NCBI RefSeq assembly: GCF_001592745.1 | Contig: NZ_LUKD01000001.1 | Span: forward strand, 1,868,914 to 1,932,913 | From: Bdellovibrio bacteriovorus | GTDB taxonomy: Bacteria > Bdellovibrionota > Bdellovibrionia > Bdellovibrionales > Bdellovibrionaceae | Length of the DNA stretch: 64,000 nucleotides | Reading direction: 5' to 3' | In this document: positions 2,776-31,664 of the stretch, in pieces | How positions within the stretch are numbered: the stretch's first letter is position 1 | Layout of the letters: each line of letters begins with the position of its first letter | Notes under the pieces: model-generated | Database searches by the model: none | Seen by the model: the letters and a program-made list of their open reading frames with translations, nothing else | Told to the model about the DNA's origin: nothing | Translations under genes and position numbers: made by a program

Positions 2776-2897
2776 TAGCAAATTCGGGGGCTTTGCGATA
2801 GTTCTAATGCCCTTGATCGGACCTTCCTTTCTTCTCTGCGTCACGGGCTTTGGTCTTAAGGGGTTCTTTAGATGGATTTAAATCGCTTCGAGCGACG

Positions 2898-3056
2898 GAT
2901 TTGGGTTTGGGAGGAGGCTTGGTGATGGGCCGCTTCGTGCGGGCACGCCATCCGGGCTCGGTCGGTGCCGAGGCTTTGCCTCGGTTCGCGCCATCCAGGC
3001 GCCACCGAAGGCCCTTACTTCGGGCCCATCACCAAGCCTCCTCCCAAACCCAAATC
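2898..3056. repeat. Palindromic repeat element, copy A
   Basis: A 34-nt perfect inverted repeat (2898-2931 with 3023-3056, ends GATTTGGG and CCCAAATC) encloses a GC-rich core of about 91 nt. The core has a second helix TCGGTG/CACCGA (2962-2967 with 3003-3008) and a hairpin CCGAGGC-TTT-GCCTCGG (2968-2984). Copy B at 31057-31224 has the same layout. The segments GCACGCC(A/T)TCCGGGCTCGGT, TTCGCGC, ATCCA and GCGCC are shared, while the helices differ in sequence but stay paired. The right flank (TGCTG, then TCGA and TTCG) is also shared, so the element may extend to about 3085. No encoded protein is evident. Confidence 0.8.
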
Positions 3057-3220
3057 TGTGCTGATGCTTTAATCGAGCTTCGACTTTTAAAATCACAGCG
3101 GATGTGGGCGGTATGAAAATGGAAAAACGTGCTGAGGGATTTAGAAAATCAAAGGAACGATTTTGAAATATCCAAAGGTAGGAACTTAGAAAAATCTTTT
3201 TTAATGCGGTTTGCGGGCAT

Positions 3221-30987: not shown

Positions 30988-31019
30988 AAAGGGAGCTGTT
31001 TCAGCTCCCTTTTTTTTTG
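30988..31019 (+). terminator. Rho-independent terminator
   Basis: AAAGGGAGCTG-TT-CAGCTCCC is followed by nine or more T. It closes the rplM-rpsI operon. Confidence 0.93.
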
Positions 31020-31056: not shown

Positions 31057-31224
31057 GATTTGCGGATGGAAGTGCTGCCTGCCTTAGCTGGCTGGTCGCT
31101 TCGGTCGGCACGCCTTCCGGGCTCGGTTGCCGCCGCCTTTCAGGCGGTTCGCGCATCCATGCGCCGGCAAAGGCCTCTCTTAGGACCAGTCAGCTAAGGC
31201 AGGCAGCACTTCCATCCGCAAATC
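31057..31224. repeat. Palindromic repeat element, copy B
   Basis: A 41-nt inverted repeat (31057-31097 with 31184-31224) pairs at 40 positions plus one G-T wobble; its ends GATTTG and CAAATC match copy A, but the rest of the arm is different. The core shares CGGCACGCC(A/T)TCCGGGCTCGGT-type blocks, TTCGCGC, ATCCA and GCGCC with copy A. The inner helix is TTGCCG/CGGCAA (31127-31132 with 31165-31170), and the hairpin is CCGCCT-TTC-AGGCGG (31133-31147). All three helices differ from copy A yet stay paired. Confidence 0.8.
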
Positions 31225-31445
31225 TTTGCTGGATTCGATGTTCGTTTCTTCGAATAATTCTAAAAAACTGGGATGAACTGTATTTCGTGATGACGAGGGA
31301 TTTGTTTTATTTTGGAATCTATTGGGACGTTCGGTGTTTTGGGATCTGGGCTTCGCCGTGATTTCGTTTGTGGTGGATTTTTAGATTTTCACTTGATGGT
31401 TGAAAGTTTATGGGTCCCAATTATTTCATGTTCTAACGCAAATGC

Positions 31446-31466
31446 TTACTGCCACGGTGGCAGTAA
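31446..31466. repeat. 21-bp palindrome 1
   Basis: Perfect inverted repeat: half-site TTACTGCCAC, one central G, then the complement GTGGCAGTAA. Candidate operator or DNA-structure element; first of three related sites. Confidence 0.7.
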
Positions 31467-31552
31467 AAGGTGGTTATCATCCACGTTGTTTCGTTCGCTT
31501 CCCATTAATTAATCTAATCAAACAGAAGTACGATAATCATGGAGCTCAATTT

Positions 31553-31573
31553 TTACTTCCACCGTGGAAGTAA
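31553..31573. repeat. 21-bp palindrome 2
   Basis: Perfect inverted repeat: half-site TTACTTCCAC, central C, complement GTGGAAGTAA. Relative to palindrome 1 a G-to-T change at position 6 is matched by C-to-A in the other arm. It begins 107 nt after palindrome 1. Confidence 0.7.
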
Positions 31574-31643
31574 ACAGCTAAGACGCTTCCTTTTTTCGAA
31601 GGCACGGTAACATTGATTTGCGGTTTTGAAGTGACGCACTTGC

Positions 31644-31664
31644 TTACCGCCACCGTGGCAGTAA
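31644..31664. repeat. 21-bp palindrome 3
   Basis: Half-site TTACCGCCAC, central C, other arm GTGGCAGTAA; one mismatched pair (position 5). It begins 91 nt after palindrome 2. Confidence 0.7.

Follow-up and report, generated by a model that had tools for sequence, protein, structure and literature searches.

Palindromic DNA repeats of a Bdellovibrio lineage whose stem arms change together

Two palindromic elements, copies A and B, lie some 28 kb apart in the window (the whole 64,000-nucleotide stretch of Bdellovibrio bacteriovorus DNA that was analysed), and they are by far its strongest inverted repeats. The arms of the two elements differ in sequence and each element is self-complementary, a pattern that an earlier note on this DNA had read as compensatory change and hence as evidence of a selected fold. 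The questions raised by the locus are what these elements are, and whether their complementarity is kept by selection on a folded RNA or by a process acting on the DNA itself.

Copy A as a whole spans 2891-3062 (all window features are given on the + strand), as delimited from its sequence, its fold and the outer box that it has in common with other copies. It is closed by an imperfect base, AGCGACG/TGTGCT, with one bulged G. Inside the base, the stem survey placed a left arm at 2898-2931, which opens with the outer box GATTTG (2898-2903) and continues as a copy-specific stem, and a right arm at 3023-3056 that is its perfect complement; the complementarity is complete across 34 bp and still 97% when extended to 37 bp. 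Further inward, sequence and alignment identified CTTCG at 2933-2937 as the left half of a symmetrical unpaired internal loop (partner 3018-3022), followed by the conserved head GGCACG...AAGGCC (2942-3013; alignment A1), which matched model R1 over 2927-3029 with 87.7 bits. The head contains hairpin H1 (GCC/GGC, 2947-2957), helix P2 (2962-3008, formed by TCGGTG at 2962-2967 and CACCGA at 3003-3008), hairpin H3 (CCGAGGC/GCCTCGG, 2968-2984) and hairpin H4 (GCGCC/GGCGC, 2988-3002). In copy B, arms of 41 nt each with a single G-T mismatch (left 31057-31097, right 31184-31224) enclose a head at 31107-31175 (model R1 match 31093-31190, 90.9 bits), in which the inner helix reads TTGCCG/CGGCAA and the core hairpin CCGCCT/AGGCGG. 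The arms and both helix changes are exactly as the earlier note had described them; to that description we add the outer boxes common to copies, hairpins H1 and H4, which complete the head, and the unpaired CTTCG/CTTCG loop. Relative to dinucleotide shuffles, the folding energies gave z = -12.7 for copy A and -11.8 for copy B.

The two elements are not isolated. A DNA search of this genome (G000) with each copy as the query returned approximately 25 copies, and a covariance model built from 22 aligned heads (alignment A1) found copies in 22 of the 24 searched genomes of the genus, at 2-29 per genome, so that the further copies for which the earlier note had proposed a search exist both here and across the genus. 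Strain HD100 has 12, and we take HD100 and Tiberius to be among the genomes carrying copies. Outside the genus, only 2 of 117 further genomes of the order had copies, both from genera of the same family, and all of the named records showing the pattern are Bdellovibrio. Four weak matches (L024, L025, L027 and L028) were set aside as chance matches or remnants rather than copies. The earlier note had recognised no known family, and none was matched here: Rfam 15 gave no match at the gathering score and weak, chance-level matches in a permissive search, phage records, plasmid records and viral contigs contained no match, and searches of an open-access library yielded no earlier description of the repeat. 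We assign copies A and B to a new, apparently undescribed family of palindromic DNA repeats that is lineage-specific, interspersed and non-coding. The family lies outside every known family tested and behaves like a self-correcting palindrome.

A typical element is approximately 190 bases long and is ordered, from the outside inward, as an imperfect base with a bulged G, the outer box GATTTG/CAAATC, the stem, the CTTCG/CTTCG internal loop that separates stem from head, and the head. The outer box is common to different copies. The stem that follows it has a different sequence in every copy, and its length varies little (median 33 bp, quartiles 31-35, among 72 stems). The four-helix head of about 85 nt consists of helix P1, hairpin H1 (loop NTCCN), helix P2 and hairpins H3 and H4, and its unpaired motifs GGCAC, GGTTCG and AAGGCC are nearly invariant among the 22 aligned heads of this genome. 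The conservation of stem length and of these unpaired motifs indicates that something besides complementarity is under constraint. Left arms are G/T-rich with a faint common GGGCTTGG motif, and the left foot is often GACGG (CGTC on the other strand), yet GGGGG in many copies. We also observed that, in the 72 copies, stem mismatches cluster toward the inner end, 5-10 bp from the head, often as GCT against GAT; some of these are kept between orthologues and could mark strand identity.

Covariation in the heads is very strong, which upholds the earlier note's description of an element with covarying helices for the family as a class. In 107 heads (alignment A2, fitted to the model structure) there were 540 cells with two-sided change versus 161.9 (sd 10.9) in shuffles, and the covariation score was 0.487 versus 0.131. 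Two-sided change occurred at 24 of the 27 head pairs, and sliding the partner by a single column destroyed the signal. RNA helices normally pass through G-U pairs and tolerate them. In the two central head helices (helices 3 and 4), 357 two-sided cells were accompanied by only 2 G-U cells. The stems, whose counts are independent of A2, gave the same picture: 2,407 positions in 72 stems comprised 2286 Watson-Crick pairs, 22 G-T, 28 A-C, 58 other mismatches and 13 gaps. Given that an A-C on one strand is a G-T on the other, the equal and low numbers of the two (p = 0.48) favour neither strand as a transcript and, together with the near-absence of G-U, suggest that pairing is kept at the DNA level. 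In view of this near-pure change from one Watson-Crick pair to another, with no wobble intermediates on either strand, the step from covariation to a selected fold does not follow; what was found is abundant two-sided change, and not the compensatory change with tolerated G-U that is the mark of a fold-selected RNA.

The comparison of orthologues provided a second line of evidence on this point. For 21 copies of this genome a counterpart was located at the corresponding site of the sister species G005, with one further match added afterwards; in those 21 orthologue pairs 647 stem pairs were unchanged, 63 had changed on both sides while staying Watson-Crick and 26 had changed on one side, 9 of the latter at a single locus (L016). 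The paired change of 8.5% is near the flank divergence of approximately 7%, which is the prediction for unbiased neutral copying from arm to arm, so selection on the stem is not needed as an explanation and the earlier argument from compensatory change is weakened further. At L016 the arms are mismatched in G000, whereas the orthologues in G005 and in G009 have different, more closely matched arms; the G000 locus is thus as expected for a state between mutation and correction. Paired change ranged from 0 to 14 of about 33 pairs per locus and was overdispersed, a clustering by locus that suggests bursts rather than a simple clock. The heads change in blocks (at L019/L089, for instance, the arms were kept and P2 and H4 swapped), which suggests conversion between copies. 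Two other origins for new arms were considered and rejected. An origin in other elements or in another part of the genome was discarded because no donor was found: one rewritten arm, searched genome-wide, had none elsewhere in three genomes, and arms of different loci had hardly more k-mers in common than shuffled arms. Replacement by unrelated sequence was discarded because the arms, once aligned pair by pair, proved to be diverged homologues.

We therefore favour, with a probability of roughly 0.6, the reading that these are lineage-specific palindromic DNA repeats whose complementarity is maintained by arm-to-arm DNA copying. The anatomy, the copy number, the position 3' of genes and the paired, Watson-Crick-only change are observations; that one arm templates the other is suggested by the substitution pattern together with known quasi-palindrome biology (PMC7202029; PMC6649704). 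Each copy can form a long stem, either from a single DNA strand or as a cruciform, with the conserved four-helix head at its tip. One arm would template the other, by quasi-palindrome template switching or else by gene conversion inside the hairpin. Any mutation that arises in one of the arms would then be erased or copied to the partner, so that arm sequences could drift neutrally and remain complementary. The unpaired head motifs and outer boxes may be preserved by selection, by conversion between copies or by a putative DNA-binding protein or transposase. Copies would be lost through deletions that leave a left-arm stub. A stronger form supposes a dedicated protein that binds the hairpin head, whether in single-stranded DNA or in a cruciform, and promotes error-prone copying between the arms, with the shape kept and the stem sequence discarded. 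We judge it decidedly improbable; if true, the element would be a structure-encoded genetic element.

Where the copies lie bears on whether some of them act as RNA. In 33 of 47 copies the gene upstream has the same orientation as the element (p = 0.008), and only 2 of 44 copies lie between divergent genes. Distances from stop codon to element are bimodal, being either 9-26 nt (16 of the 33 same-strand copies) or mostly about 50-130 nt, with an intrinsic terminator often intervening at the longer distances. Neighbours include the core genes groEL, fusA, rpsI, rpsD, rpoN and nrdA, and also rodA; no mobile genes were present among the neighbours examined, and ORFs of 88-119 aa that cross elements had no Pfam match. 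Copies would persist mainly in tolerated space behind genes, where some may be carried in transcripts. One such case is in HD100, in which a copy at 1339149-1339247 (+) falls inside APsRNA6 (1338787-1339441, +), which belongs to a published set of eight attack-phase sRNAs and rises 46-fold in that phase (PMC3627812 Table 2). Supporting the coordinate match was a GCCGAAAA box 7 nt before the published start. The transcript opens with a small ORF and the element starts approximately 26 nt past its stop codon; for such copies, roles at the RNA level are possible. As side observations at this locus (L237, genome G001), the ORF of about 88 aa ahead of the element has hydrophobic stretches, so that APsRNA6 may be an mRNA with a 3' element, and the published end of APsRNA6 falls within a second, degenerate, inverted copy.

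The strong folds of A and B are what could be expected if the element were a structured RNA, transcribed in 3' UTRs or sRNAs with its fold selected, for example as an RNase III substrate, a 3'-end stabiliser or a protein-binding RNA. The close spacing behind stop codons and the APsRNA6 copy point the same way. Against this are the scarcity of G-U in stems and head, with G-T no commoner than A-C, the lack of an Rfam family, and the small overlap with the published sRNAs (one of the eight, at one of the 12 HD100 copies). Furthermore, in this genome about 9 of 23 copies are placed past an intrinsic terminator, copy B included: it is 3' of the rplM-rpsI terminator (30989-31018, identified from sequence), which separates it from its upstream gene. 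Copy A, flanked by the start of valS and the end of a porin gene, is antisense to both. Neither A nor B has a T run after its right arm of the kind an intrinsic terminator would have. Of the three identities offered by the earlier note, we consequently regard structured RNA as unlikely for the family, although one HD100 copy does lie in a published transcript.

The second identity, a mobile palindromic unit, fits the class of element better than it fits present activity. In its specific form this would be a miniature transposon that still moves today, carried as single-stranded DNA by a transposase whose gene lies elsewhere (e.g., of Y1/RAYT type). Copies are dispersed, the outer boxes are conserved with no background in the control, Y1 transposase genes are present in 21 of 24 genomes, and presence differs between close species: the L020 and copy B sites are occupied in G000 and G005, whereas in G009 the L020 site is unoccupied and the copy B site not intact. 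However, nearly all G000 copies are at the same loci in G005, and two absences are losses that left stubs. Among 24 rpsI loci copy B is intact in G000 and G005 only, and G009 retains behind rpsI (L124) a left-arm stub from which the head and right arm are deleted; likewise G005 has at C1:159625 (L239) the left-end stub, lacking head and right arm, of a copy that G000 has at C1:1043116. No clean empty-site boundary or target duplication was found at the two loci where empty or decayed sites were compared. A RAYT/Y1 transposase was rejected as a partner since copy number is uncorrelated with Y1 number (genomes without a Y1 gene have 6-16 copies) and no element is near any of ten Y1_Tnp loci. No related autonomous transposon was found: in G000 and G005 every occurrence of the outer box belonged to an element or a stub, apart from one chance site with two mismatches. 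Inverted element pairs with their 3' sides facing recur at some loci, and these were rejected as composite-transposon ends, their spacers being about 110-650 bp, AT-rich and with no obvious gene. Current mobility is thus quite unlikely.

The third identity was a chromosome-organising site, at which a structure-specific protein would bind a cruciform and so serve to organise the chromosome or attach the nucleoid. Folding at the level of DNA, together with the conserved unpaired motifs, would suit such a role, and in two of five complete genomes positions are clustered (G012, p = 2.5e-5; G008, p = 0.01), but in the other three (G013, G015 and G019) they are uniform, copy number runs from 0 to 29 across species, and orientation follows the neighbouring gene. 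We consider this role very improbable.

The reading of palindromic DNA repeats corrected from arm to arm also has to be set beside systems already known. ERIC and YPAL are long hairpin repeats of 120-170 bp that lie 3' of genes and keep their stem sequence. The Bdellovibrio element resembles them in size, hairpin fold and 3'-gene position, but in its stem the two arms vary jointly, from copy to copy as well as from one orthologue to another. REP/BIME repeats, in GTAG- and CGTC-tagged families, are high-copy extragenic palindromes of 20-40 bp (PMC3733652, in which Bdellovibrio is not mentioned). The present elements are likewise palindromes outside genes, for the most part 3' of a gene where neighbouring ORFs converge or run in tandem, and sometimes they form inverted pairs. 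They differ from REP/BIME in their length of about 190 bp, four-helix head, 2-29 copies and copy-specific stem. REP/BIME have an unpaired GTAG or CGTC tag at the foot; in the present elements the left foot is often GACGG, which reads CGTC on the other strand, and in many copies GGGGG. The RAYT gene flanked by repeats that typifies REP/BIME was not seen at the ten Y1_Tnp loci. Perfect arms that evolve in concert are known from coding palindromes of nematomorph mitochondria, where they are attributed to template switching or repeat conversion (PMC6649704); unlike the Bdellovibrio element, those palindromes are within genes, mutually unrelated and without a conserved head. Finally, template-switch mutation at E. 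coli quasi-palindromes (PMC7202029) makes imperfect arms perfect by copying one from the other. That is the mechanism proposed here, but it is known from mutational hotspots rather than from a dispersed natural repeat family.

In this family the concerted evolution of palindrome arms can be followed unusually clearly in natural bacterial sequences, and many orthologues are available for comparison. The family also carries a warning: a strong covariation signal, usually taken to prove a functional RNA, can have its origin in the DNA, and counting G-T versus A-C mismatches is a simple test for this. In addition, it gives a model predatory bacterium a repeat family with one copy in a known attack-phase transcript.

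Other palindromes were noted near these elements. Three copies of another short palindrome, TTACTGCCACCGTGGCAGTAA, closely follow copy B (window 31443-31466, 31551-31576 and 31644-31664). It is also present in the element-pair spacers of L017 and L076 and behind rpsI in G009, and its recurrence at several sites makes it look like another repeat family. At the copy B site downstream of rpsI in G021 (L127) and G019 (L130) there are other hairpin clusters with similar loops (CCATCGTGG, GCTTCGC and GCCNTCCTGGC), which are perhaps a related modular palindrome family.
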